From assembly GCF_029637705.1 (NCBI RefSeq), contig NZ_CP121252.1, positions 2,356,001 to 2,420,000 on the forward strand: DNA of 64,000 bases, read 5' to 3'. Shown one piece after another: positions 41,643 through 54,955 of the stretch (the stretch's first letter is position 1; the number at the start of each line of letters is the position of its first letter). The DNA comes from Citricoccus muralis (lineage in GTDB: Bacteria > Actinomycetota > Actinomycetes > Actinomycetales > Micrococcaceae). Position numbers and translations under genes: made by a program. Under the pieces are notes generated by a model. It saw only the letters and a list, made by a program, of their open reading frames with translations, made no database searches and was not told the origin of the DNA.

Positions 41643-42434
41643 TCATTCGTGGAGGCTCGGGAAATCCTGTTCCCCCAGCTCCTGGAGCCGGTGGCTGATT
41701 CCTTCGGCGGCGTGGAGCAGCGGCTCCTGGTAGCGCTCCAATTCGGGGTCCAGTCGGTAGTTGACCAGACCCACTGCGGCGTGCGCCACTCCGTCCACCA
41801 GCACCGGGGCCGCGATCGAGGACGATCCGAGCACGTACTCCTGCGCGCTGGTGGCATAGCCTCGGCGCCGGATCTCCTCCAGCCCACGGTCCAAACGCTG
41901 TGGATCAACCTCGGTATGGGGAGTGAAGGGCTGTAGTGGCTGGGAAAGAATCTGTTCCTGGACCGAGGATTCGCTGAAGGCCAGGATGACTTTGCCGAGG
42001 CCCGTGGCATGCAAAGGAATGCGTGCACCGATGCGGCTCTGCAAGGGGACAGATTCCTCATGGGTCAGTTTCTCGATGTAGAGTGCGGTCAGATCATCGG
42101 GAATCGCGAACTGCACCGTCTGCCGGGTCTTGTACTGCAGGTTGAGCAAAAACGGCAGCGCGGTCTCTCGGAGCCGACCGTGCAGGGGGGTCAGCAATCC
42201 CATCTCCCAGAGGCGCATGCCGAGGCGATATCGCCCCTCCGGGGATCGCTCAACGAATCCTCCGGCCCCCAGCTCGCCCAAGAGCCTGAAGGTCGTGGCG
42301 ACCGGCAAGCCGGTGCTCCGCGACACTTCGCTGATGGTCATGGAGGGAGCTGAGACGCTGAATTGGCTCAGAATCAGCAGGGCCCGGGCCACGACTGTCT
42401 TAGGCAAACCTGGCGAGGCTGACAAGAATGGCAT
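41643..42434 (-). CDS. IclR family transcriptional regulator (second of a tandem pair)
   Basis: A 263-residue IclR-type regulator. The N-terminal winged helix covers about residues 1-75 (TISEVSRSTGLPVATTFRLLGELGAGGFVER), and the C-terminal effector-binding domain covers about residues 80-250 (LYIEKLTHEESVPLQSRIG, HATGLGKVILAFSE, RRRGYATSAQEYVLGSSSIAAPV). The start at 42434 overlaps the stop of the other IclR gene (TGATG) and has AAGGCGG upstream. IclR proteins commonly control aromatic, acid or ketone catabolic operons; this pair faces the dikinase-carboxylase operon and probably controls it. Confidence 0.9.
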   Translation of the reverse strand: MPFLSASPGLPKTVVARALLILSQFSVSAPSMTISEVSRSTGLPVATTFRLLGELGAGGFVERSPEGRYRLGMRLWEMGLLTPLHGRLRETALPFLLNLQYKTRQTVQFAIPDDLTALYIEKLTHEESVPLQSRIGARIPLHATGLGKVILAFSESSVQEQILSQPLQPFTPHTEVDPQRLDRGLEEIRRRGYATSAQEYVLGSSSIAAPVLVDGVAHAAVGLVNYRLDPELERYQEPLLHAAEGISHRLQELGEQDFPSLHE

Positions 42435-43207
42435 CAGGTCCGCCTTTCGTTCAGGAGCGCAGACACGCTTCGTGCTGTCATCTGCAAGATAGCGATCCGA
42501 AACTCGTCCTGTCGAGAGGACGCTTCGGCAGAGCGGTGGTATCGGAGGGACATCGACATCGGCGGCCGGTTCTGCACATCCAGTGGAACCGCGTACTCTA
42601 CGGCATCTCCGGATTCCAGGATGACGTAGCGCCGATCGCGTGAGGCCTCGATTCTCTGTTCCAGCGTCTGCAGGCTGCGTTGGGTCAGCCTGAGCCGTCG
42701 CCGCGACTCGGCGGAGAGCTGGCCTGCCACCGCGATGCCACCGGCGGTGCCCTCCAAGGAGCACATCTCCCCCAGCCCATTCTGCGCCGACATGGACGCC
42801 ACCAGGATCTCGTCAACACACATCGCGGCTCCATCGAAGTAGCTGTACACCCGCACATCGGAATTCGTCCGAGAGCTCAGGGGCATCAGCAATAGGCGAG
42901 CCCCATAGCCGATGACGTCATGGCTCTGGGAGAGGATCCCCATACGCCACATCAGCGGGCCGATGCTGTAGGCGCCCTCGTTGTTCCGCACGACTGCGCC
43001 CATCCCCTCCAGCTTGTGGAGCAGCCGATGGACGGTCGCGACCGGAAGGCTGGTCCGTCGCGAGATGGCTGACAGCGTCAAGGTCCGGTGCTGAGCGTCG
43101 AATGCCAACAGGACGGTGAAGACGCGCTCAGCCACAGATTTGGAGCCAACTGTCTCCAGCGTGGATCGACTGGCAGCGCCTGCCGAAGGCTCTCGTGACG
43201 TGCTCAT
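42434..43207 (-). CDS. IclR family transcriptional regulator (first of a tandem pair)
   Basis: A 257-residue IclR-type regulator. The helix-turn-helix region (LTLSAISRRTSLPVATVHRLLHKLEGMGAVVR) lies near residues 48-80. The C-terminal domain is less typical: it has CVDEILVASMSAQNGLGEMC and GGIAVAGQLSA rather than the usual HATGLGKA-type motif, so its ligand pocket probably differs from that of the second regulator. The ATG at 43207 is chosen for the AGGGG site upstream; a longer in-frame start would run into the shared promoter. It diverges from the dikinase operon across a 167-bp gap that holds an inverted repeat and a CRP-like site. Confidence 0.87.
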   Translation of the reverse strand: MSTSREPSAGAASRSTLETVGSKSVAERVFTVLLAFDAQHRTLTLSAISRRTSLPVATVHRLLHKLEGMGAVVRNNEGAYSIGPLMWRMGILSQSHDVIGYGARLLLMPLSSRTNSDVRVYSYFDGAAMCVDEILVASMSAQNGLGEMCSLEGTAGGIAVAGQLSAESRRRLRLTQRSLQTLEQRIEASRDRRYVILESGDAVEYAVPLDVQNRPPMSMSLRYHRSAEASSRQDEFRIAILQMTARSVSALLNERRT

Positions 43208-43240
43208 ACTGCCCCTGCCTCTCGGTGTCCCCTCAGAATA

Positions 43241-43261
43241 GTTTTCCACTCTTTGAAAAAC
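43241..43261. promoter_or_regulatory. Candidate IclR operator (imperfect inverted repeat)
   Basis: GTTTTC (43241-43246) and GAAAAAC (43255-43261) form an imperfect inverted repeat with eight bases between the arms, close to the reverse-strand IclR gene. IclR-family operators are often short AT-rich palindromes of this kind. Assignment to either regulator is inference. Confidence 0.4.
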
Positions 43262-43266
43262 AAGCT

Positions 43267-43282
43267 GGTGATGCAGATCACA
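43267..43282. promoter_or_regulatory. CRP/GlxR-type operator upstream of the dikinase operon
   Basis: GGTGA-TGCAGA-TCACA matches TGTGA-N6-TCACA with one mismatch. It lies 93 bases before the operon's first start codon and 60 bases from the IclR start, in the divergent promoter region. It mirrors the perfect site at 12204-12219. Confidence 0.55.
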
Positions 43283-43374
43283 TTTTCTTAGGCTCGTGGT
43301 TGTCTTCATCTCTTAGGTCGCGGTCTGTTGATCACACAGCCGCAGGCCACCATCTCCGACCCGAAGGACTCATC

Positions 43375-45240
43375 ATGACTCAGGCAGATATGAGCCAGGA
43401 CACGCGCCCTGCCACCGAGAAAAGCTTCCCGAATCCCTATGAGATCGCCACGCCACCGGGGGCTGAAGGCTGGGAGGAGATGTATTCCTACCACAACCGA
43501 TTCCTCGAGACCCGACGGGCCGAGGATTCGCAGAAGACCTGGTTCCGCAACTCCCTACACTTCCCCGAAGTCTCATACCCCTTCGACCACGCCCTCATCG
43601 ATGGATCGTTCACGGGCACCGGAGTGACCAACACCCGCGTCTTCGCCCTGCCGCCGGCGCTGGGTCTAGATGTGAGAGTCATCAACGGCTACACCTACAT
43701 GTCCACGCTTCCCGCTCCGGACGAGGAGACCCAGGCCCGCCGCGCCGAAGAATTCTCCCAGCGTGCTGGGTACTACTTCCAGAACTGGGACACCCTCTAC
43801 AAGGAATGGGAATCCCGGGTGACCGCAGCCATCCGGGCGGTCGTGGACATCGAGGTTCCGGAACTCAGCGAGTTTGAGCCCATTGAAAAGGTGCTCGAAG
43901 ACCGCGGCCCCACCCAGGGCAACCTCTTCTTGGCCGGCTATCACCGGCTGGTGGAAGCGGGCGACCAGATCTGGACGCTGCATTCGGAATTCCTGAACCT
44001 CGGTTACGCCGCATACCTGCAGTTCCTGACGCTGTGCAAGGACCATTTCCCGGAGATCGACGACCAGACGGTCTCCCGGATGGTCTCCGGAATCGACGTG
44101 CTACTGTTCCGTCCCGACGACGAACTGCGCAATCTCGCCCGCCTCGCAGAAGAGCTCGGCGTCTCCGACGCCATCAAGTCCGCCACTTCCGAGGAGGAAC
44201 TGAACACGGCGCTCGAGCCGGAAGAAGCAGGCCGCACGTGGCTGGCCGCACTGGAAGAAGCCAAAGACCCGTGGTTCAACTTCTCCTACGGATCCGGTAT
44301 GTATCACTCCCACCGAAGCTGGATTGATGACATGTCGCTACCCATCCGGGCCATCGGCGACTATATCGACCAGCTGCGAGCCGGCGACGACCTCACCCGC
44401 CCCCTGGACCGGCTACAGGCCGAGCGCGACGAGATCGTGGATCGGTACCGTGAGCTGCTCGACGAGGACGACCGTCCCGTCTTCGACGAAGCCCTGGGGC
44501 TGGCCCGCACCGTCTTCCCCTACGTGGAGAACCACAACTTCTACGTCGAGCACTGGTTCTTGACCGGTTTCTGGAACAAGGTCCGCGAATTCAGTGCAAA
44601 ATTCGTTGAATGGGGCTTCTGGGATGATGTCGAGGACATTTTCTTCCTCCGTCGCGCCGAGGTCGAAGAGGCCGTCTATGACTTGCAGATGGCCTGGGGC
44701 GCCGGCGGCACCGCACAGGGCGGCTACTACTGGCCGGCCATCATCCAGCGACGCCGCGAGATCTACCAGGCGCTCGACGCCTGGACGCCTCCGCCGGCGC
44801 TGGGCCCCGTTCCGGGGGATGTCAGCGAACCTCTGACGATCATGCTCTGGGGCATCACCCCGGAAACCGTCGATCGCTGGCTCAAGGCGCAGGACGGCGG
44901 CTCGTCCTCGACCGTCTTGGAGGGGTTCGCCGGGTCTCCTGGCGTGACCGAAGGACGGGCGCGCGTCGTGCTGCGCCCGGACGAGCTCGACACCGTGCAA
45001 GACGGCGAGATCCTCGTCGCCCCGGTGACGAGCCCGAGCTGGACCCCGGTCTTCGGCCGCATCCGTGGAGCGGTCTCCGACATCGGCGGCATCATGTGCC
45101 ACGCCGCCATTGTGTCCCGCGAGTACGAGCTGCCCGCCGTGGTCGGCGTCGGCTTCGGCACATCCAATATCAAGACCGGCCAGCTGATCCGCGTCGATGG
45201 CGATGCTGGCACCGTCACGATCTTGGAGGAACAGAAGTGA
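43375..45240 (+). CDS. Dikinase large subunit with phosphohistidine domain (phenylphosphate-synthase-like)
   Basis: A 621-residue protein. The C-terminal 100 residues form the PEP-utiliser swivelling domain with the phosphorylatable histidine in GGIMCHAAIVSREYELPAVVG. The first 500 residues do not resemble the ATP-grasp or PEP-binding barrel; they are rich in aromatic residues (YFQNWDTLYKEWESRV, FNFSYGSGMYHSHRSWIDDM, HNFYVEHWFLTGFW) and probably bind the acceptor. This layout, with the ATP-binding half in the next gene, matches subunit 1 of phenylphosphate synthase (about 70 kDa) and parallels rifampin phosphotransferase. Predicted role: transfer of a phosphoryl group from the His to a non-pyruvate acceptor. 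The ATG at 43375 has AAGGA upstream. First gene of an eight-gene operon. Confidence 0.82.
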   Translation: MTQADMSQDTRPATEKSFPNPYEIATPPGAEGWEEMYSYHNRFLETRRAEDSQKTWFRNSLHFPEVSYPFDHALIDGSFTGTGVTNTRVFALPPALGLDVRVINGYTYMSTLPAPDEETQARRAEEFSQRAGYYFQNWDTLYKEWESRVTAAIRAVVDIEVPELSEFEPIEKVLEDRGPTQGNLFLAGYHRLVEAGDQIWTLHSEFLNLGYAAYLQFLTLCKDHFPEIDDQTVSRMVSGIDVLLFRPDDELRNLARLAEELGVSDAIKSATSEEELNTALEPEEAGRTWLAALEEAKDPWFNFSYGSGMYHSHRSWIDDMSLPIRAIGDYIDQLRAGDDLTRPLDRLQAERDEIVDRYRELLDEDDRPVFDEALGLARTVFPYVENHNFYVEHWFLTGFWNKVREFSAKFVEWGFWDDVEDIFFLRRAEVEEAVYDLQMAWGAGGTAQGGYYWPAIIQRRREIYQALDAWTPPPALGPVPGDVSEPLTIMLWGITPETVDRWLKAQDGGSSSTVLEGFAGSPGVTEGRARVVLRPDELDTVQDGEILVAPVTSPSWTPVFGRIRGAVSDIGGIMCHAAIVSREYELPAVVGVGFGTSNIKTGQLIRVDGDAGTVTILEEQK

Positions 45241-46349
45241 TGTCACGATACGTCTGCCCCTTCGCTGAGCTGGGCGCGGGAGACCGAGAATCCGTGGGCG
45301 GCAAGTGCGCCAGCCTGGGAGAAATGGTCAACGCCGGCTTGCCCGTCCCGGACGGCTTCGCCGTGACCGTGGAAGCGTTCGAAGACTTCCGTGACGCGTC
45401 CGATCTCAGGACCGAGCTGCAGACCCTGGTCCAGAGCATGCAGGAGGCCCGTCCACAGCAGCTGCAGCAGGCGCATGAGCAGGCCGTGGAGTTGATCCTG
45501 CACCGGCCCCTGCCCGAGGAGATGGAACGACAGATCTCAGAGGCCTACACCACGTTGGTCCAGAACACGGCGCAACGTCGCGGCCTGTCCGAGGCCGATG
45601 CCGTGAAGATTCCCGTGGCCGTCAGATCATCCGCCACCGATGAGGACGGGGACGCCGCGTCCTTCGCCGGGCAGCAGGAAACGTTCTTGTGGGTCAGCGG
45701 TGCTGACGCGGTGCTGGAGAAGATCCGGGAATGCTGGGCCAGTCTGTACACGCCGCAGGCCATCTCCTACCGCGCCTCCATGGACGCCACGGAGGGAGCT
45801 TTGGCCTCGCGGATCTCCGTGGCCGTCCAGCTCATGGCCGATGCCGACGTCGCCGGCGTGACCTTCACCGTTAGCCCGACCACCGGTGACCGTTCCGTGA
45901 TTGCCATCAATGCCAGCTACGGGCTCGGGCAGTCCGTCGTGTCGGGGGAAGTCACCCCGGACGAGTACTGGATCTCAAAGATCGGCCCGACGATCAAGGA
46001 ATCCAGAATCGCGGACAAAGCCCAGGAGTACGTTCCCAACAGCGACGGGACCGGAATCGAATTGCGCGACGTCGACGCCGAACGCCGTTCGCAGGCCTGC
46101 CTCTCGGACGACGAGGTGATTCAGCTCGCGGAGATCGCCGTCGCCGTAGAAAAGCATTACGGGACGCCACAGGATATCGAATGGGCCTTGGAGCGCAACG
46201 CGGACGGAACGAACAACGTCATGCTGCTGCAGTCTCGCCCGGAGACGAATTGGAAGAAGCGCAAGGACGAACAGGCCACCCGCAAGAAGGAACCGAACGC
46301 GACGACCGGACTCATCTCCTACGTCTCATCTGCATCGAAGGGAGCCTGA
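45240..46349 (+). CDS. Dikinase small subunit, PEP-synthase-type ATP-grasp domain
   Basis: A 369-residue protein equivalent to the N-terminal ATP-binding third of PEP synthase or pyruvate phosphate dikinase. GGKCASLGEMVNAGLPVPDGF, PVAVRSSATDEDGDAASFAGQ, NASYGLGQSVVSGEVTPDEY and DIEWALER are the family blocks in order. It would use ATP to phosphorylate the histidine on the large subunit, releasing AMP and phosphate by the dikinase mechanism. The start overlaps the large-subunit stop (TGATG), so the two are made together. The size (about 40 kDa) fits phenylphosphate synthase subunit 2. The Lys-rich tail after residue 340 is not conserved in PEP synthase. Confidence 0.85.
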   Translation: MSRYVCPFAELGAGDRESVGGKCASLGEMVNAGLPVPDGFAVTVEAFEDFRDASDLRTELQTLVQSMQEARPQQLQQAHEQAVELILHRPLPEEMERQISEAYTTLVQNTAQRRGLSEADAVKIPVAVRSSATDEDGDAASFAGQQETFLWVSGADAVLEKIRECWASLYTPQAISYRASMDATEGALASRISVAVQLMADADVAGVTFTVSPTTGDRSVIAINASYGLGQSVVSGEVTPDEYWISKIGPTIKESRIADKAQEYVPNSDGTGIELRDVDAERRSQACLSDDEVIQLAEIAVAVEKHYGTPQDIEWALERNADGTNNVMLLQSRPETNWKKRKDEQATRKKEPNATTGLISYVSSASKGA

Positions 46350-46351
46350 TC

Positions 46352-46864
46352 ATGGCCGAGATCACCACACCGACCTGGGACGAGCTGGTGAAGCTGGTCG
46401 CGGAGCTCGACGGATCGAACTTTGAGAACGTCTCGATCGACTACGGCGAGGTGTCCCTGCGGATGTCCCGGGATGAGCTTCAGCCCGATGCACCGGCACG
46501 GAATCGGGCGGAGACACCGACACCCGCGCCAGCGGATCCTGCTCCGGTCCCGACCTCCAACGCCGCGGCCGCCGCCCCGTCCGCTCACGACACCGAGACG
46601 GCCTCGGCTGCTTCCGAGGGAACGGCCGTCTCTTCACCGATGGTGGGGGTCTTCTACCGTTCCCCCTCCCCTGACGCGCCGCCCTTCGTGACGGAAGGCG
46701 ACCGGGTCGAGGCGGACTCGACGGTCGGCATCATCGAGGTCATGAAGCTGATGAACCCCGTTCAGGCGGGTGTCGCCGGTGTGGTGTCATCCTTCGCGGC
46801 GGCCGACGCGCAGGCGGTCGAATACGGCCAGGATCTGCTGCACATCATCCCGGAGACGTCATGA
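46352..46864 (+). CDS. Biotin carboxyl carrier protein
   Basis: A 170-residue BCCP. The N-terminal part (WDELVKLVAELDGSNFENVS) resembles the AccB N-terminus, a Pro/Ala-rich linker spans residues about 45-88, and the biotinyl domain begins SSPMVGVFYRSPSPDAPPF and carries the biotin lysine in IIEVMKLMN (Lys132). It would carry CO2 between the biotin carboxylase and the carboxyltransferase encoded next. It starts two bases after the dikinase stop and overlaps the carboxylase gene by four bases. Confidence 0.93.
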   Translation: MAEITTPTWDELVKLVAELDGSNFENVSIDYGEVSLRMSRDELQPDAPARNRAETPTPAPADPAPVPTSNAAAAAPSAHDTETASAASEGTAVSSPMVGVFYRSPSPDAPPFVTEGDRVEADSTVGIIEVMKLMNPVQAGVAGVVSSFAAADAQAVEYGQDLLHIIPETS

Positions 46865-48264
46865 GCCAGCCGCAGAAAGCGCCCACTGTTCTGGTGGCCA
46901 ATCGCGGTGAGATCGCCGTCCGCATCATCGAGGCGGCCCACCGCATCGGCGCTCGGGCGGTGCTGGCCGTCAGCGAGGCCGACCGCGATTCGGTCGGGGC
47001 CCAGCTGGCGGACGAAACCGTCGTCATCGGCCCGCCTCAGGCCGCCCAGTCCTATCTACGGCCTGAATTCGTGGCACAGGCGGCCCTGCAGTCCGGCGCC
47101 GACGTGGTCCATCCCGGCTACGGGTTCCTCAGCGAACAGCCCGAGCTGACCGAGATGCTGGAGGCCGAGGGCATCGCCTTCGCAGGGCCGCGGGCCGAGA
47201 CGCTGCGTGCCGTCGGGGACAAATCCAGTGCCCGCCAGGTCGCCATCGCCGCCGGTGTGCCGGTCGCCGCCGCCGAGCCGGTGCTCGATCCACACGATGC
47301 CGCCCAGCTCCGCTCCCTCGGCGACGCCGTGGGCTACCCGTTGCTGGTCAAAGCGGTCTACGGGGGCGGCGGTCGCGGCATCCGGCTGGCACCCGACCCC
47401 GAAACTCTCGTGCAGCTGGCTCCGCAGGCCGCCGCGGAAGCCGTCGCCGCCTTCGGCAACGGCGACCTCTACGTCGAGCGCTACTACGGGGCCGCCCGGC
47501 ACGTGGAGGTCCAGGTCTTCGGCGACGGCGACGGCGGGGTGCGGATCTTCGGCGACCGAGACTGCTCGGTGCAGCGTCGCCACCAGAAGCTCATCGAGGA
47601 GTGCCCGGCACCCGGGCTCTCGGAAGACCGCCGTCGAGTGTTGCATGACTCGTCTCGGGCCCTGGTGCGCGAGTTGCGCTATCGCGGCGCAGGGACCGTT
47701 GAGTTCATGGTGGACACGCAGTCAGAGGACATCATCTTCCTTGAGGTCAACGCTCGCATCCAGGTGGAGCATCCCGTCACGGAAGAGGCTTTCGGCATTG
47801 ATCTGGTGGCCGCCCAGCTGCGTTTGGCGCTGGGGCTCGACCCACAGTTGCCGGAGATGTCGGCCATCCCGGCGGCGACCGCCATCGAGGTCCGCATCAA
47901 CGCCGAGGACCCCGACCTGGATTTCCGTCCAGCGCCGGGACGGATTGCCTCGGTGTCCTGGCCCCGAGGTCCCGGGATCCGTGTGGATACGCTTCTGCGG
48001 GATGACTACACGTTCCTGCCGTACTACGACAGCCTGATGGCGAAAATGATCGTGAGAGCCCATGACCGCTCCGCCGCCGTCGACGCCTTGCTCTCCGCCG
48101 TTCGACGCACCCGCATCGAGGGGGTGGCCACCACGCTGCCAGTGCACGAGCAGGTGCTGGATCACCCCGATTTCCGGGCCGGAGCTGTGCCCACCACCTG
48201 GTTCGGCCCGTTCTGGGACGAGCACGCCCCGGCCACCTCAGACTCCCGAAAGGCTGTCCGATGA
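46861..48264 (+). CDS. Biotin carboxylase subunit (AccC-like)
   Basis: A 467-residue ATP-grasp enzyme that carboxylates biotin using ATP and bicarbonate. VANRGEIAVRIIEAAHRIGA begins the biotin-carboxylase N-domain, KAVYGGGGRGIRL is the glycine-rich ATP loop, and EVNARIQVEHPVTEE holds the conserved catalytic Arg and Glu. It lacks a biotinyl or carboxyltransferase domain, so it depends on the separate neighbours. The start overlaps the BCCP stop and the stop overlaps the carboxyltransferase start, indicating a stoichiometric complex. It is probably dedicated to this operon rather than to fatty-acid synthesis. Confidence 0.93.
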   Translation: MSQPQKAPTVLVANRGEIAVRIIEAAHRIGARAVLAVSEADRDSVGAQLADETVVIGPPQAAQSYLRPEFVAQAALQSGADVVHPGYGFLSEQPELTEMLEAEGIAFAGPRAETLRAVGDKSSARQVAIAAGVPVAAAEPVLDPHDAAQLRSLGDAVGYPLLVKAVYGGGGRGIRLAPDPETLVQLAPQAAAEAVAAFGNGDLYVERYYGAARHVEVQVFGDGDGGVRIFGDRDCSVQRRHQKLIEECPAPGLSEDRRRVLHDSSRALVRELRYRGAGTVEFMVDTQSEDIIFLEVNARIQVEHPVTEEAFGIDLVAAQLRLALGLDPQLPEMSAIPAATAIEVRINAEDPDLDFRPAPGRIASVSWPRGPGIRVDTLLRDDYTFLPYYDSLMAKMIVRAHDRSAAVDALLSAVRRTRIEGVATTLPVHEQVLDHPDFRAGAVPTTWFGPFWDEHAPATSDSRKAVR

Positions 48265-49826
48265 CCACCACCGACCCCGTACCCGTGCGGAAGCCCATCC
48301 GATTCGTCGACACCTCCCTGCGCGACGGAAACCAGTCGCTGTGGGGCGCCACCGGCCTGACGACCGGCATGGTCGAAGCCCTCGGCCCTGATCTGGCCGA
48401 CGTCGGGTTCGAGGCGATCGATTTCACCAGCTCCACCAACCTGCTCATGGGTGCCAAAACCCACCGGGAAGATCCATGGGAGCGGATATCGCGCATGCAC
48501 GCTGCCACCGGGGACCTGCGGCTGTCGGCGATCACCACCGGCATGCGCTTCATGTCCTGGGAACGGGCCTCGGAGACCGTGATGCGGTTGGCGCTGCGGC
48601 TGATGGCCCGCCACGGGCTGTCCAGGATCCAGATCGCGGACCCGATGAATGACTCCGACGCCGTCACCACCGTCGCCCGGTGGGCGAAAGAGGAAGGGTT
48701 TGCCCAGGTCGTGGCGGCCACCACCTTCACCGAGTCCCCGGTGCATACCGACGCCAGCTACGTCCAGGCTGCCCGTCAGTTCACCGCCGATGCGCACATC
48801 GACGCCGTCTATCTCAAAGACCCCGGAGGGCTGTTGACCCGGGACCGCGTGGCCAGCCTGGTGCCGGCGCTGCGCGAGGTCGTCACCGGCAAGCCTCTGG
48901 AACTGCACGGACACTGCACCACCGGCGAAGCTCCGCAGAACTATGTCCTGGCCGCCGAGCTCGGGGTGGACGCCCTGCACACCGGAATCGGGTTCCTGTC
49001 TAACGGCACCGCCCAGCCGGGTCTGGTCTCCGTGTTGGATAACCTGGAGGCTGCCGGGATCCCCCACGACGTCGACCGGGACGCGCTAAGCCGCGTCACG
49101 GCCATCATCGAGCGCATCGCTTCCTCTCAGGGGCTGCCCGCTGGCGAGGTGATGCCTTACGATCTGGCCCCGCACATCCACCAGGTGCCGGGTGGGATGA
49201 TGGGCACGCTCAAGCGCCAGCTCCAGGAGCTGAAGATGGAGTCGGTGCTGCCGGCGGTCATTGCGGAATCGGGCCGAGTGCGGGCCGATCTCGGCTACCC
49301 CATCATGGTGACCCCCTTCAGCCAGTTTGTCGGCAGCCAGGCGCTGATGAACGTGCTGTCCGTCCAAGGCGGACAGGAGCGCTACAGTCGAATCCCGGAC
49401 GAGGTCGTCCGCTTCGTTCTCGGACACTTCGGCACCCCGGCGGGCGAGATCGACCCGGCCGTGCGAGAAAAGGTCGAGTCCCTGTCCCGGGCCAAGGAGC
49501 TGCACTTCGAGCCGGCCCACAGCGGCACACTCGAGGAGATTCGAGACGAGCAGAGCCGCAAGGCCGGGCGTGATCTGGCGGATGAGGAGCTGCTGTTGCG
49601 CCTAGTGATGGCGCCGAATGTTCTGGAGTCCGTCCGGTCAGCCGGACCGGCACCGACGTGGAGCAGCGCAGCTACCGCTGGCCGGGTCGACTCCCTGGAG
49701 GGTTTCATTCGGGCGGTCAACACCCTGCCGCGTTGGAAGTCCTTGCATGTACGCCGCGGGAGCCAGGAGGTGCGCCTCCGGCGGACATCCCCGACCACGC
49801 CCACCCGCCACGAATCCGGAAGGTGA
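48261..49826 (+). CDS. Biotin-dependent carboxyltransferase, pyruvate carboxylase/OadA/5S type
   Basis: A 521-residue TIM-barrel carboxyltransferase. RFVDTSLRDGNQSLWGATGL matches the R-D-x-x-Q-S-L active-site motif, YLKDPGGLLT carries the lysine that is carboxylated in pyruvate carboxylase, and LHGHCTTG supplies the metal-binding H-x-H. HQVPGGMMGTLKRQL, RADLGYPIMVTPFSQFVGSQ and the downstream helical region follow the OadA/5S pattern. This class transfers CO2 from carboxybiotin to an enolisable carbonyl compound, normally pyruvate. The operon context (dikinase, acetoacetyl-CoA synthetase) suggests a ketone or its enol phosphate instead. The last 40 residues are Arg/Ser/Thr-rich and not conserved. 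Confidence 0.87.
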   Translation: MTTTDPVPVRKPIRFVDTSLRDGNQSLWGATGLTTGMVEALGPDLADVGFEAIDFTSSTNLLMGAKTHREDPWERISRMHAATGDLRLSAITTGMRFMSWERASETVMRLALRLMARHGLSRIQIADPMNDSDAVTTVARWAKEEGFAQVVAATTFTESPVHTDASYVQAARQFTADAHIDAVYLKDPGGLLTRDRVASLVPALREVVTGKPLELHGHCTTGEAPQNYVLAAELGVDALHTGIGFLSNGTAQPGLVSVLDNLEAAGIPHDVDRDALSRVTAIIERIASSQGLPAGEVMPYDLAPHIHQVPGGMMGTLKRQLQELKMESVLPAVIAESGRVRADLGYPIMVTPFSQFVGSQALMNVLSVQGGQERYSRIPDEVVRFVLGHFGTPAGEIDPAVREKVESLSRAKELHFEPAHSGTLEEIRDEQSRKAGRDLADEELLLRLVMAPNVLESVRSAGPAPTWSSAATAGRVDSLEGFIRAVNTLPRWKSLHVRRGSQEVRLRRTSPTTPTRHESGR

Positions 49827-49833
49827 CGCCGTC

Positions 49834-50760
49834 ATGACCACGCCCCTGAACACACCGCCCAGCTCGTCAGCGATCACGCAGGATCTGGCCGATCGGATCT
49901 CCCGCGCACATGGCGTCATGTTTGATATCGACGGCTGCCTGTTGCTGGCCGACCAGCCCGGTGGTTACGGCGGTACCCTGCTGCCCGGAGCCGCGCAGGC
50001 ACTGAAGGCCGTGGGCGCCACCAGACGCCGGTTCGTGTGCTTCACCAACGGGTCATTCCAGACGCCATCCGCGATCGCCGGGACCCTGCGGGAACTCGGG
50101 CTCGAGGTCACCGATGAACAGGTGATGACCCCGGCCGTCGTCGCGGCCGAAACCATCGCCCGGCGCTACCCGGGCGGACGCGTGCTCGCGTTCGGCGGCC
50201 CCGGGGTCATCGAGACGTTCACCACCCACGGGGTGGAGCTGGTCGCCGTTGAGGAGGCAATCGCCGGTCGAGCCGGTGACGTCGCCGCCGTCGTGATCGG
50301 CTGGGACACCGAGTTCGGCCGGTCCAAGATCGTGGCCGCGGCCGAGGCCGTCCTGGCCGGCGCCACGCTGTACGCCACCTCCGACGCTCCCACGTTCGCT
50401 TCCCACCACCGGCTGAACGTCGGCGTCTCCGGTTTCATCGCCGCCGGCCTCTCCCACGTCACCGGTCACCCCTACCGGGTGCTCGGCAAGCCCTCCGCGG
50501 AAGCCTTCGAGGCGATCTGCGCCCGCACCGGTGCCACCGCGGAAGAACTGTTGATCGTCGGAGACGACCTGCAGCTGGAAACCTCGATGGCGGTTCGACA
50601 CGGTGCAACCGCGGTGCTGATGACGACCGGGACGCACTCGCGCCAGGAGGCCGAACATGCCAATCCCGAACGGCGGCCCGATCTGATCCTGGACTCACTT
50701 GACGAACTCGCCCACCTGTTGCGCGCTGGTACAACACCCAGCCGGACGGAGAACTCATGA
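49834..50760 (+). CDS. HAD-IIA (NagD-like) phosphatase
   Basis: A 308-residue HAD hydrolase. Motif I is VMFDIDGCLLL (nucleophile D of D-x-D), motif II FTNGSFQTP, motif III the lysine in LGKPSAEAF, and motif IV the acidic pair in IVGDDLQLE. The cap between motifs II and III follows the IIA pattern of NagD and p-nitrophenylphosphatases. It begins seven bases after the carboxyltransferase stop and overlaps aacS by four bases. In this operon it may hydrolyse an organophosphate made by the dikinase, either as a pathway step or to clear a dead-end product. Confidence 0.88.
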   Translation: MTTPLNTPPSSSAITQDLADRISRAHGVMFDIDGCLLLADQPGGYGGTLLPGAAQALKAVGATRRRFVCFTNGSFQTPSAIAGTLRELGLEVTDEQVMTPAVVAAETIARRYPGGRVLAFGGPGVIETFTTHGVELVAVEEAIAGRAGDVAAVVIGWDTEFGRSKIVAAAEAVLAGATLYATSDAPTFASHHRLNVGVSGFIAAGLSHVTGHPYRVLGKPSAEAFEAICARTGATAEELLIVGDDLQLETSMAVRHGATAVLMTTGTHSRQEAEHANPERRPDLILDSLDELAHLLRAGTTPSRTENS

Positions 50761-52754
50761 GCACCACCGATACGTCACAGCCCCCGATGACGTGGAGCCC
50801 CTCAGCAGAGCAGATTGACGAGGCCCGCCTGACGGATTTCATGCGGTGGGTCGAAACCCACCGCGGAGTCGCCCTCTCGGACTACCGCGAGGTGTGGTCC
50901 TGGTCGGTGTCGGAGCTGTCTGACTTCTGGGACTCGGTGCGACAGTACTTCCAGATCATCGGTGATGGTTTCGACGGTCCCGCTCTGGCCGATGAAACGA
51001 TGCCCGGGGCCACCTGGTACCCCGGTGCGACCCTGAACTTCGCCGAAAACGTCCTGCGCCACGCGAATGATCCCGAGCTGGTCCATGTGCCCGCCATCGT
51101 CGACATCGACGAGCAGGACACCCGCCACGATATCACCTGGGGCCAGCTCGCCGGCCGCGTCGGGGCCCTGTCGCAGCAGCTGCGGTCTCTCGGCGTCCGC
51201 CCGGGTGACCGTGTGGCGGCCGTGTTGCCGAACATCCCGGAAGCGATCATCGGCCTGCTTGCAGCGGCCTCCATCGGAGCGGTGTGGACGATCAACTCGC
51301 CCGATTTGTCCGCCCAGGCCACCCTGGACCGATTAGCGCAGCTGGAGCCGACGGTCCTCATTGCCGCCGACGGGTACCAATTCAACGGCAAGGATTTCGA
51401 ACGGCTCGAGCATCTTGCGGACGTCCGTGCGGGACTGCCAAGCGTCAAACACACCATCGTGGTCAACAAACTCAACTTAGAATTATCTGCTGACGATCTC
51501 GGCTACGAAGTCCTGGATTTTGCTGGGCTCACGGCGTCCCCCGTCGACCCTGAGTTTCTCCGCGTGCCATTCAGCCATCCGCTGTGGATCTTGTTCTCCT
51601 CCGGTACCACCGGGGCGCCCAAGGGCATCGTGCACAGCCACGGCGGCATGGCGCTGGAGGCCTCGAAGGGGTGCGGACTCAATCAGGACATGGGCCCCGG
51701 CGACCTCTACTACGTCGTCGCGAACACGTCGTGGATGGTGTGGAATACCCTCGTCAACAACCTCATGGTCGGCGCATCTGTCGTCACGTACGCGGGTTCT
51801 CCGACCTATCAGCGCAAGGACCGACAGTTCCACATCCTCGCTCACACGGGAGCCACCATGTTCGCCACCGGTGCCGCCTACCTGAGTCTGGTGCAGAAGG
51901 CCGGAGTGTATCCCGGACAGCAGTGGGATCTGTCTCGGCTTCGAGCCATTCTCTCCACCGGTTCGCCCCTGCCCGAATCGACCTGGAAGTGGGTGCACGA
52001 TGAGGTGAAGTCCGACGTGCATCTGGGATCAGATACCGGCGGCACGGACATCTGCTCGGGATTCATCGGTTCCAATCCGCTGGAGCCGGTTCGACTCGGA
52101 TACCTCCAAGGGCCTCTGCTCGGTGTAGCGGTCGAAGCACGGAGCGAGGCCGGAGATCCGGTGATCAACGAGGTGGGCGACCTGGTTGTCACGCGCCCCA
52201 TGCCCTCCATGCCTGTGTCCTTCTGGGGTGACGCGGACGGGTCCCGCTACCGTAGCTCCTACTTCGACAAATTCCCCGGAGATTGGACTCAAGGTGACTG
52301 GATCACCGAAACCGACTGGGGCGGATTCGTCGTGCATGGCCGCTCCGACGCAACGCTCAACCGACAGGGTGTCCGGTTGGGCAGCGCCGACATCTACAAC
52401 GCCGTCCAACACGTCCAGGAGGTCGCAGACTCACTGGTGATTGGCGTCGAGGAGTCGGACGGCGGATATTACATGCCGCTGTTCGTGGTGCTGAAAGAGG
52501 GGGCGACTCTTTCGGAGGAGCTGATCACGCGGATCGCCACCACCATCAGGTCTCATACCAGCGCTCGGCATGTGCCCGACACGGTCCTGGAGGCGCCAGC
52601 TATTCCCGTTACCCATGCGGGCAAGAAGATCGAGGTACCGATCAAGCGGCTGTTCTTGGGCCACCGCCCGGAGGACGTGATTAACGCGAGTTCCCTGTCC
52701 AACCCAGAAGCCCTCGACTGGTTCATCCGCCAAGCCCGGCAACCTCGAGATTGA
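50757..52754 (+). CDS. aacS: Acetoacetyl-CoA synthetase (acetoacetate:CoA ligase)
   Basis: A 665-residue AMP-forming ligase. The adenylation P-loop is FSSGTTGAPKGIVHSHGG, the characteristic GSDTGGTDICSGFIG block follows, and the catalytic lysine near the end lies in VTHAGKKIEVPIKRLF, an AacS-type C-terminus. The N-terminal TFTWSP-like block and W-Y-P-G-A-T-L-N-F-A-E-N segment also match AacS. It would convert acetoacetate or a similar 3-oxoacid to its CoA ester, ready for thiolysis. It overlaps the phosphatase gene upstream. Its presence is the strongest clue that the carboxylase product is a 3-oxoacid. Confidence 0.92.
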   Translation: MSTTDTSQPPMTWSPSAEQIDEARLTDFMRWVETHRGVALSDYREVWSWSVSELSDFWDSVRQYFQIIGDGFDGPALADETMPGATWYPGATLNFAENVLRHANDPELVHVPAIVDIDEQDTRHDITWGQLAGRVGALSQQLRSLGVRPGDRVAAVLPNIPEAIIGLLAAASIGAVWTINSPDLSAQATLDRLAQLEPTVLIAADGYQFNGKDFERLEHLADVRAGLPSVKHTIVVNKLNLELSADDLGYEVLDFAGLTASPVDPEFLRVPFSHPLWILFSSGTTGAPKGIVHSHGGMALEASKGCGLNQDMGPGDLYYVVANTSWMVWNTLVNNLMVGASVVTYAGSPTYQRKDRQFHILAHTGATMFATGAAYLSLVQKAGVYPGQQWDLSRLRAILSTGSPLPESTWKWVHDEVKSDVHLGSDTGGTDICSGFIGSNPLEPVRLGYLQGPLLGVAVEARSEAGDPVINEVGDLVVTRPMPSMPVSFWGDADGSRYRSSYFDKFPGDWTQGDWITETDWGGFVVHGRSDATLNRQGVRLGSADIYNAVQHVQEVADSLVIGVEESDGGYYMPLFVVLKEGATLSEELITRIATTIRSHTSARHVPDTVLEAPAIPVTHAGKKIEVPIKRLFLGHRPEDVINASSLSNPEALDWFIRQARQPRD

Positions 52755-52782: not shown

Positions 52783-53532
52783 ATGACACCTGAGATTTCG
52801 GAGGAGATCGCCACACGCATGGCCGTGGACCCGCAAGCCCACGCGGAGGACCCACGTGCGATGGCCTTTGAAACGGAATTCCCCGTCCGGCCCATACCTG
52901 CCCGCGGTCCGGTTGCCACGGGACCGATTTCTCTGACTCCCGCCACTGGTGATGACCGGCTGTGGAGAGCTATCGAGCCGGAGCTGCGAGCACGGGCCAA
53001 CGACATTCACCTGCCCATCTCCGCGGCCTATGCCGCCCGATTGTGCGATGCCTACCCGCAGGCCGACCGCGAGCTCGTCATGGTGGCGATCATCCTCCAT
53101 GACACCGGATGGGCTCATGTGGACCAGTCACGGGTGATCTCCGAAGGTTTCAGGTCCGGGGGCGACTGGAGGAAGCAGCTCATTCGCTTCGAGCACGAAG
53201 TCGAAGGATGCAAAGTCGCCCGCCGCGTCCTGCCCAGCCTGGGATATGATCAGGCGTTCGTCGAGCGCGTCTGCACGATCATCGACGGACATGACACTCG
53301 CCTCGTTGCCTATTCCCTCGAGGACGCGCTGGTCAGGGACGCCGACCGGCTCTGGCGCTTCGACGGACCCGGGATCGCGTTATCCACTCAATGGACGGGA
53401 TTGGACGTCACGACGTACCTGGATGACGTGGAACGCCGGTTCGTGCCCGAATTGATCACTGAGGCAGCGGTGCAGATGGCCCGCCAAGACTTGGATCGCC
53501 ATCAAGCACTTCTGCGAACGCGCCTGAGCTAG
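52783..53532 (+). CDS. HD-domain hydrolase
   Basis: A 249-residue protein with an HD phosphohydrolase domain covering about residues 60-200. The metal motif lies in VAIILHDTGWAHVD, a further His in IIDGHDTRLVAYSL, and the final Asp in RDADRLWRF. The N-terminal 50 residues are Pro-rich and not conserved. It follows aacS by 28 bases with AGAGGACACCCT before the ATG and is probably the last operon gene. HD enzymes hydrolyse nucleotides or phosphate esters; a role in controlling the dikinase or clearing a phosphorylated intermediate is inference only. Confidence 0.8.
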   Translation: MTPEISEEIATRMAVDPQAHAEDPRAMAFETEFPVRPIPARGPVATGPISLTPATGDDRLWRAIEPELRARANDIHLPISAAYAARLCDAYPQADRELVMVAIILHDTGWAHVDQSRVISEGFRSGGDWRKQLIRFEHEVEGCKVARRVLPSLGYDQAFVERVCTIIDGHDTRLVAYSLEDALVRDADRLWRFDGPGIALSTQWTGLDVTTYLDDVERRFVPELITEAAVQMARQDLDRHQALLRTRLS

Positions 53533-53848: not shown

Positions 53849-54365
53849 GGTGCCTCATCGTCAAGTCCCCGGGAAATGATTCCTCGTGCCTCATGGAAAA
53901 GTCCCCGCGAAACGGTGTTGTGGTTAGGCGCTACGGGCTCGGCGTTGATCGATCTTGATCCATTCCGCGTCGGGCATGGCCGCAGCGGCCGCGTATTCCA
54001 GTTCGCGTTCTAGCCGTCGGGTGGGTTCTTTCGCGTTCTCGATCAATCGGTGCTGGATCGAGGTGATCTTACGAGCGATCTCAACGACGTTTAGTGAGGC
54101 TTTATACGCGGCGAGCTCGGCTTCTTGGGCCGGGCTAAGCACTCCAGCGGCTAAGAGCCGGTGATACGGCGATAAGGGCTTGTCGTAGACCCGTTTCCGG
54201 CGGCCAACCGCATCAGTGGTGTATCCGATGGGTTTCTTCGTGGGGGTGTAGTAATTCAGCCGGTCACACACCAATGGCCATAACTGATTCAACAGCTCAC
54301 GTTGATGAGGGGTGTCGTACCGGTAGTAGAACCCGTACCGGCGCACGAGATGGTTGTTCTTCGAC
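53849..54365 (-). mobile_element. Truncated IS element (3-prime end only), copy 1
   Basis: The left boundary carries two ~24-bp repeats of the type GTGCCTCAT-N-AAGTCCCCG (53849 onward and 53885 onward), the same terminal motif that begins the IS copy at 62.8 kb. Between these repeats and 54365 lies the 3-prime third of the transposase gene. Over about 235 bases it differs from the other copy at only a handful of positions by eye. The 5-prime part is missing and the break point abuts a 27-bp perfect inverted repeat. Confidence 0.8.
53924..54365 (-). pseudogene. Transposase C-terminal fragment
   Basis: The reverse strand encodes SKNNHLVRRYGFYYRYDTPH, then RELLNQLWPLVCDRLNYYTP, TTDAVGRRKRVYDKPLSPYH and a C-terminal helical tail ending IDQRRARSA. 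It matches the end of the integrase-core transposase of the second IS copy from the catalytic Glu region onward; the two catalytic Asp residues lie in the lost part. An open frame continues from the inverted repeat into this fragment, but the first dozen residues are not transposase. It is non-functional. Confidence 0.82.
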
Positions 54366-54430
54366 TTGAACCGTCCCTGGTTCTGTGCCGCTTCTATGCG
54401 GGGAGCGGCACAGAACCAGGGACGGTTCAA
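54366..54430. repeat. 27-bp perfect inverted repeat at the IS break point
   Basis: Arms at 54366-54392 and 54404-54430 are perfect complements (TTGAACCGTCCCTGG...CCAGGGACGGTTCAA) around an 11-nt loop. The repeat sits exactly between the truncated transposase and the IclR remnant. It could be the end of another element or a fold-back scar from the deletion. It lacks a U-tract on either side, so a terminator role is less likely. Confidence 0.75.
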
Positions 54431-54482
54431 AGCGTCGACAACGTCGTTTAGGTAACCTGACCCAGATTGAATACGAACTAGT

Positions 54483-54955
54483 TCACCACAAAGCCGTCGC
54501 CTGGCGGCATCAACCCCGGGGTCAACTCAACCTTCAGCAGTCTCTTCATCGACGGCGTGGAGTCCACCCGCGCGCTCCGGGCAAGCCCGCGAGTTGGCGT
54601 GCGAATGTCTGACCACGCCACGGCGGGCGGGAAAATCCAGGTGGCTCATCTGGATCAGAAGGAACTGATCGATCTGTTCCCAGTGGGTTTGAAACCACTC
54701 ACCTCGCATACCGAAACTGATCTGCAGGCGTTATTCAAAGAGCTCAAACGATGCCGGGACCGAGGCTATGCCCTTTCTCGCGAAGAGAGCACCGAAGGCA
54801 TCTCAGCGATAAGCGTTCCCATACAGAACTCCCACCAGCGAACGGTGGCCGCACTCAGCGTGGTGGCTCCGTCTTCCCGGCTACCTCACACCAGATTTAA
54901 CCCAATGATCCGCATGCTCGCTGAGGTCGCAGCTACCGTGCGCTCAAGTATCTAA
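54483..54955 (+). pseudogene. IclR-family regulator remnant (C-terminal effector domain)
   Basis: The open frame begins after a TAG at 54480 and reads FTTKPSPGGINPGVNSTFSS, then LFIDGVESTRALRASPRVGV, HATAGGKIQVAHLDQKELIDLF, RCRDRGYALSREESTEGISA, VAALSVVAPSSRLPHTRF and RMLAEVAATVRSSI. This is the order of an IclR effector-binding domain. The winged-helix domain and proper start are missing; upstream lies the inverted repeat and IS fragment. It is likely the victim of the IS rearrangement. A GTG at 54557 could start a shorter product but would lack a DNA-binding domain. Confidence 0.65.

Follow-up and report, generated by a model that had tools for sequence, protein, structure and literature searches.

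A two-component phenolic dikinase of a predicted hydroxyphenylethanone pathway in Citricoccus muralis

The two-component dikinase HpeHI was identified in 2022 (PNAS, PMC9618137), and its kinetics, mutants and structure were reported in 2025 (JBC, PMC12167813). It phosphorylates the phenolic hydroxyl of its substrate, not the ketone or enol (PMC9618137, PMC12167813), and the enzyme of Rhodococcus rhodochrous GD02, whose small subunit HpeI is PDB entry 9GOJ, prefers hydroxyphenyl ketones (PMC12167813). The carboxylase HpeCBA accepts only phosphorylated ketones, and HpeD dephosphorylates the product (PMC9618137). In a host strain, the first six hpe genes of Actinomadura macra converted 4-hydroxyacetophenone and acetovanillone to beta-keto acids (AEM 2026, PMC13101465). 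According to the published reports, a complete syntenous cluster occurs in GD02 and only four other genomes; A. macra and a Rhodococcus metagenome genome are among those named (PNAS 2022, PMC9618137). Here a contiguous stretch of 64,000 nucleotides of the C. muralis genome (the window) was analyzed. Positions refer to the window unless given as genome positions.

The kinase pair and its operon

Positions 43375-46349 very probably encode a two-component phenolic dikinase, made up of HpeH and HpeI, for the first step of the hydroxyphenylethanone (Hpe) pathway, with its reactions assigned from the orthologues. HpeI matched PDB 9GOJ over its full length (528 bits, 67% identity). HpeH was 79% identical to HpeH of A. 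macra NBRC 14102 and 80% identical to HpeH of Rhodococcus hpe clusters, whose HpeI proteins share 97-98% identity with GD02 HpeI. In the Pfam searches, HpeI contained the ATP-grasp domain PF01326 (PPDK_N) at residues 17-350 (E 1e-102), and the only domain found in HpeH was the swivel domain PF00391 (PEP-utilizers mobile) at residues 542-612. In Pfam, neither subunit showed a PEP/pyruvate barrel domain. As here, the two-component small-molecule dikinases HpeHI, CreHI and PpsAB have their ATP-grasp and swivel domains on different subunits with neighboring genes, and lack the PEP barrel. Membership in the PEP synthase/PPDK group, which is defined by the C-terminal barrel, was rejected on the Pfam result. 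The phosphohistidine loop of HpeH, VSDIGGIMCHAAIVSREY, fits the pattern S/TxxGGxxxH with His576 as the catalytic residue and Cys575 directly before it. In the published orthologue the exchange H581Q abolishes activity (PMC12167813).

The start codon of hpeI shares one base with the stop codon of hpeH, and all seven hpe genes are intact and tightly overlapping (Table 1). Two divergent IclR genes are followed by hpeH-I-C-B-A-D-E, with the same genes, order and orientation as in the A. macra cluster, which ends with the amidohydrolase gene hpeF. The kinase is thus accompanied by the HpeCBA carboxylase, the HpeD phosphatase and the HpeE CoA synthetase, the neighborhood that marks an HpeHI operon.

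Table 1. Genes of the hpe locus of C. muralis (window positions)
Feature	Coordinates	Strand	Remarks
IclR regulator 2, divergent	41643..42434	-	Longest ORF starts at 42764, start set by inspection; syntenic in hpe clusters
IclR-type regulator 1, divergent	42434..43309	-	Only the HTH domain matched; placed and oriented alike in the hpe clusters of A. macra and Rhodococcus
hpeH, large subunit	43375..45240	+	621 aa; acceptor-binding domain about 20-505, swivel domain about 512-618, catalytic His576 in GGIMCHAAIVSRE; from Pfam, homology, tree and fold
hpeI, small ATP-grasp subunit	45240..46349	+	369 aa; PF01326; 67% identity to GD02 HpeI (PDB 9GOJ)
hpeC, biotin carboxyl carrier protein of phosphophenylethanone carboxylase	46346..46864	+	PF00364; about 45% identity to the A. 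macra protein, syntenic
hpeB, biotin carboxylase subunit	46861..48264	+	Pfam; 73% identity to the A. macra protein
hpeA, carboxyltransferase subunit (HMGL-like + PYC_OADA)	48261..49826	+	Pfam; 65% identity to the A. macra protein
hpeD, HAD-IIA phosphatase	49834..50760	+	Pfam; 61% identity to A. macra; start codon by inspection, ORF extends up to 49618
hpeE, acetoacetate-CoA-ligase-like AMP-forming CoA synthetase	50757..52754	+	TIGR01217 over cut-off; 70% identity to the A. macra protein
CreD-type HD phosphohydrolase	52783..53532	+	28 bp after hpeE, in place of hpeF; PF01966

Because the PDB sequence search with HpeH was strong for the swivel domain only and matched the rifampin-binding domain weakly, the remaining fold was assigned from a structure model built from 39 relatives (mean pLDDT 89). 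The six best Foldseek matches of this model were all rifampin phosphotransferase, at 18-19% sequence identity and with a loose multi-domain superposition (rmsd 7.9-15.8 Å). VIA alignments to rifampin phosphotransferase covered 478-500 residues at Z about 24; the alignment to 5hv1 spanned model residues 25-618 (Z 23.7, 478 residues, 3.8 Å), and the alignment to 5hv2 spanned residues 42-502, i.e. the acceptor-binding domain without the swivel (Z 17.3, 372 residues). PPDK, enzyme I and pyruvate kinase matched essentially at the swivel domain. The acceptor domain of HpeH, which lies upstream of the swivel, therefore models as the fold of the rifampin-binding domain of rifampin phosphotransferase, the same fold that the JBC 2025 paper reports for HpeH (PMC12167813).

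These data bear on an earlier note on this DNA. Its description of a split dikinase, with an ATP-grasp small subunit, a phosphohistidine-loop large subunit and no barrel, agrees with the Pfam results and the His576 loop. Its region of about 500 aromatic-rich residues was also found: F, W and Y make up 13% of residues 1-500, which we judged to be above a typical protein. The replacement of the barrel by an acceptor-binding domain, as in phenylphosphate synthase and rifampin phosphotransferase, held as well. The "unknown fold" of that region did not, given the rifampin-binding-like model.

Predicted pathway and the operon tail

The pathway steps proposed for Citricoccus would be those of the tested orthologues; the genome itself contributes homology, synteny, clade, fold, an intact catalytic His and the presence of HpeF-like, PobA and PcaH genes. 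HpeI would bind ATP and present it to HpeH, where His576 of the swivel domain would take the phosphate. The phosphorylated swivel would then move to the rifampin-binding-like domain and pass the phosphate to the 4-hydroxyl of 4-hydroxyacetophenone (or acetovanillone). The biotin enzyme HpeCBA would carboxylate the phospho-ketone at the methyl carbon, HpeD would dephosphorylate the carboxylated product and HpeE would then form the CoA ester. An HpeF/CouO-type hydrolase encoded elsewhere is predicted to cleave the ester to 4-hydroxybenzoate and acetyl-CoA, and PobA and protocatechuate 3,4-dioxygenase would feed the ring into the beta-ketoadipate pathway.

A gene for PobA, 4-hydroxybenzoate 3-monooxygenase (NF006091 over cut-off), lies directly beside the protocatechuate 3,4-dioxygenase gene (PcaH). 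No VanA_C domain (vanillate demethylase) was detected in the Citricoccus genome, and the control genomes were positive. Because PobA and PcaH are present and VanA_C is absent, 4-hydroxyacetophenone is the likely growth substrate, the demethylase search covering the VanA type. The identity of 67-79% to tested orthologues does not fix the preference of the kinase among 4-hydroxyacetophenone, acetovanillone and acetosyringone. The earlier note had expected an orphan enzyme with a new acceptor, probably the ketone of the pathway. The enzyme type is already named, assayed and partly crystallized, with neither a new acceptor nor a new fold: the orthologue HpeHI has been known since 2022 and was characterized in 2025 (PMC9618137, PMC12167813). 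The (aryl) ketone of the pathway is very probably the acceptor molecule, although in published HpeHI the phosphate goes to its phenolic OH and not to the ketone.

The end of the operon differs from those of GD02 and A. macra, both of which have hpeF there. No gene for the beta-keto hydrolase HpeF was found in or adjoining the Citricoccus operon. An HpeF/CouO homologue (58%) is encoded at genome positions 2623949-2624806, about 0.2 Mb away, in a cluster with acyl-CoA dehydrogenase, SDR and CoA ligase genes. An hpeF gene within the operon is not essential, as SYK-6 encodes that step elsewhere (PMC13101465). The surrounding region (genome 2612000-2631900) is a second aromatic-looking cluster, which includes ABC transporters in addition to these genes.

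In place of hpeF, the operon carries the HD gene, and none of the other hpe clusters collected had such a gene at this position. Its product was 58-60% identical to the HD protein of two Rhodococcus cre-type operons and retains the HD residues; the PDB sequence search yielded one weak HD match. For creD of Corynebacterium glutamicum, a table entry as phosphohydrolase was all that the open literature gave. Tentatively, the Hpe operon may be a hybrid: an HD aryl-phosphatase of the CreD type would have joined or partly replaced HpeD, altering which phosphorylated intermediate is released or salvaging stalled aryl phosphates. The stretch just downstream (53924-54955) holds an ORF that matched nothing in Pfam and the truncated C-terminal domain of an IclR protein; both resemble leftovers of a rearrangement or an insertion.

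Such debris, together with the missing hpeF, could also mean that the operon is decaying and that the pathway no longer supports growth, the kinase still being of the HpeHI type. Against this stand the seven intact, tightly overlapping hpe genes, the HpeF/CouO homologue in trans and the presence of PobA and PcaH, and we consider decay unlikely. Read as a functional Hpe operon, the locus would represent a testable variant of the pathway, with predicted growth on 4-hydroxyacetophenone without vanillate demethylation, hpeF in trans and an extra HD phosphatase.

Clade, loop residue and distribution

A quick maximum-likelihood tree was calculated for 90 large subunits. A CBS subunit and the ppcBDAG genes served to identify the Azoarcus reference, and genes for a P450, ferredoxin, a reductase, an HD protein and aldehyde dehydrogenase the Rhodococcus cre-type references; these three operon-identified stand-ins replace the sequences of C. 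glutamicum CreH, Thauera PpsA and SYK-6 AcvA. Citricoccus HpeH paired with the large subunit of Arthrobacter sp. C2 (84% identity). The set of ten to which it belongs (SH-aLRT 96, the support values being from a short search) also contains sequences from A. macra, Rhodococcus, Cryobacterium and Acidimicrobiaceae, and all ten are accompanied by carboxylase genes. The Azoarcus phenylphosphate synthase and the Rhodococcus cre-type references were placed elsewhere, far from this set. The residue before the catalytic His was Cys in all 24 members of the hpe clade, as in GD02 HpeH, and in 3 of the 66 sequences outside it. Ser was found at this position in 60 of those 66, the Pps and Cre references included.

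These results weigh on the reading of the pair as a kinase acting on a simple phenol or an alkylphenol (PpsAB or the 4-cresol kinase CreHI) that happens to lie beside an unrelated carboxylase. The two-component architecture is the same, both subunits share 42-47% identity with the Pps and cre-type references, and a CreD-type HD gene is part of the cluster. However, the tree puts HpeH in the carboxylase-linked hpe clade, Cys and not Ser precedes the His, and the cluster has no ppc, P450, ferredoxin or ferredoxin reductase genes. The preference of GD02 HpeHI for hydroxyphenyl ketones (PMC12167813) also speaks against this reading, which we regard as very improbable. Clade, loop residue and operon context led us to reject an assignment as phenylphosphate synthase or CreHI; in particular, neither the neighboring ppc carboxylase genes nor the CBS subunit seen in the Azoarcus reference was found at the hpe locus. 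A second, CreH-like large-subunit gene was not found in the Citricoccus genome.

In another reading, the kinase would act directly on a ketone or its enol (e.g. making an enol phosphate from acetone), and the product would be carboxylated to a beta-keto acid and turned into acetoacetyl-CoA. This would suit a carboxylase acting alpha to the carbonyl and an HpeE above the acetoacetate-CoA ligase cut-off, but its probability is very low, as HpeHI targets the phenol oxygen and HpeCBA needs a phospho-phenol (PMC9618137), the HpeE proteins already known also belong to this type (the nearest tested homologue of GD02 HpeE is AcsA2; PMC9618137 Table 1), and a PobA gene directly beside protocatechuate dioxygenase fits an aromatic product. 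Carboxylation of acetone or another aliphatic ketone, prompted by the acetoacetate-CoA-ligase annotation, was rejected because the tested HpeE proteins belong to this type as well.

With the pair taken as HpeHI, its distribution was considered. Among 395 genomes of the same family, an hpe-type copy occurred in two (Citricoccus and one other, at 85%), and a paralogue at about 46% was present in many. This rarity suggests that the hpe-type kinase was acquired horizontally. The set of kinase, carboxylase, phosphatase and CoA ligase was found in several further actinobacteria, and the Hpe pathway is apparently more widespread than published reports state. The Citricoccus locus would add one more actinobacterial lineage to those that have this route for hydroxyphenyl ketones derived from lignin.

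More distant systems were also seen. An hpe-like operon is present in full on plasmid pRlBT01c of Rhizobium leguminosarum (kinase pair, carboxylase, HAD, CoA ligase and amidohydrolase), with an HpeH of only 48% identity and Ser before the His. Many two-component dikinases of about 50% identity, from Chloroflexota, Actinomycetota and others (54 loci), had no recognized carboxylase genes nearby, and HD genes adjoin five of them. On a plasmid of Natribaculum luteum and on other haloarchaeal plasmids, two-component dikinases of about 41% identity lie near ring-hydroxylating dioxygenase genes.

Comparison with described dikinases

The closest described systems, HpeHI of GD02 and A. macra, resemble the Citricoccus pair in the two subunits (67% for GD02 HpeI, 79% for A. 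macra HpeH), operon order, regulators, Cys-His loop and rifampin-binding-like domain. Citricoccus differs from them in an hpeF outside the operon, a CreD-type HD gene after hpeE and a genome without a VanA-type demethylase. By their descriptions, AcvAB of Sphingobium lignivorans SYK-6 and MarK of Novosphingobium aromaticivorans serve the same pathway step (PMC9618137, PMC13101465); MarK is a single-component kinase, in contrast to the two-subunit kinase here.

The 4-cresol kinase CreHI (C. glutamicum; cre-type operons, Rhodococcus plasmids) shares the two-component dikinase and the HD phosphohydrolase partner. It differs in its sequence (42-47% identity), in a P450/ferredoxin operon in place of the carboxylase and in the Ser before the His. 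Phenylphosphate synthase PpsABC of Azoarcus sp. KH32C likewise has split ATP-grasp and swivel subunits (44-45% identity), but with a third CBS subunit and the phenylphosphate carboxylase genes ppcBDAG next to it. Rifampin phosphotransferase (5HV1, 5FBT) resembles HpeH in the fold of both the acceptor-binding domain and the swivel domain (Z about 24), whereas it is one fused chain with an antibiotic as acceptor and about 20% identity.
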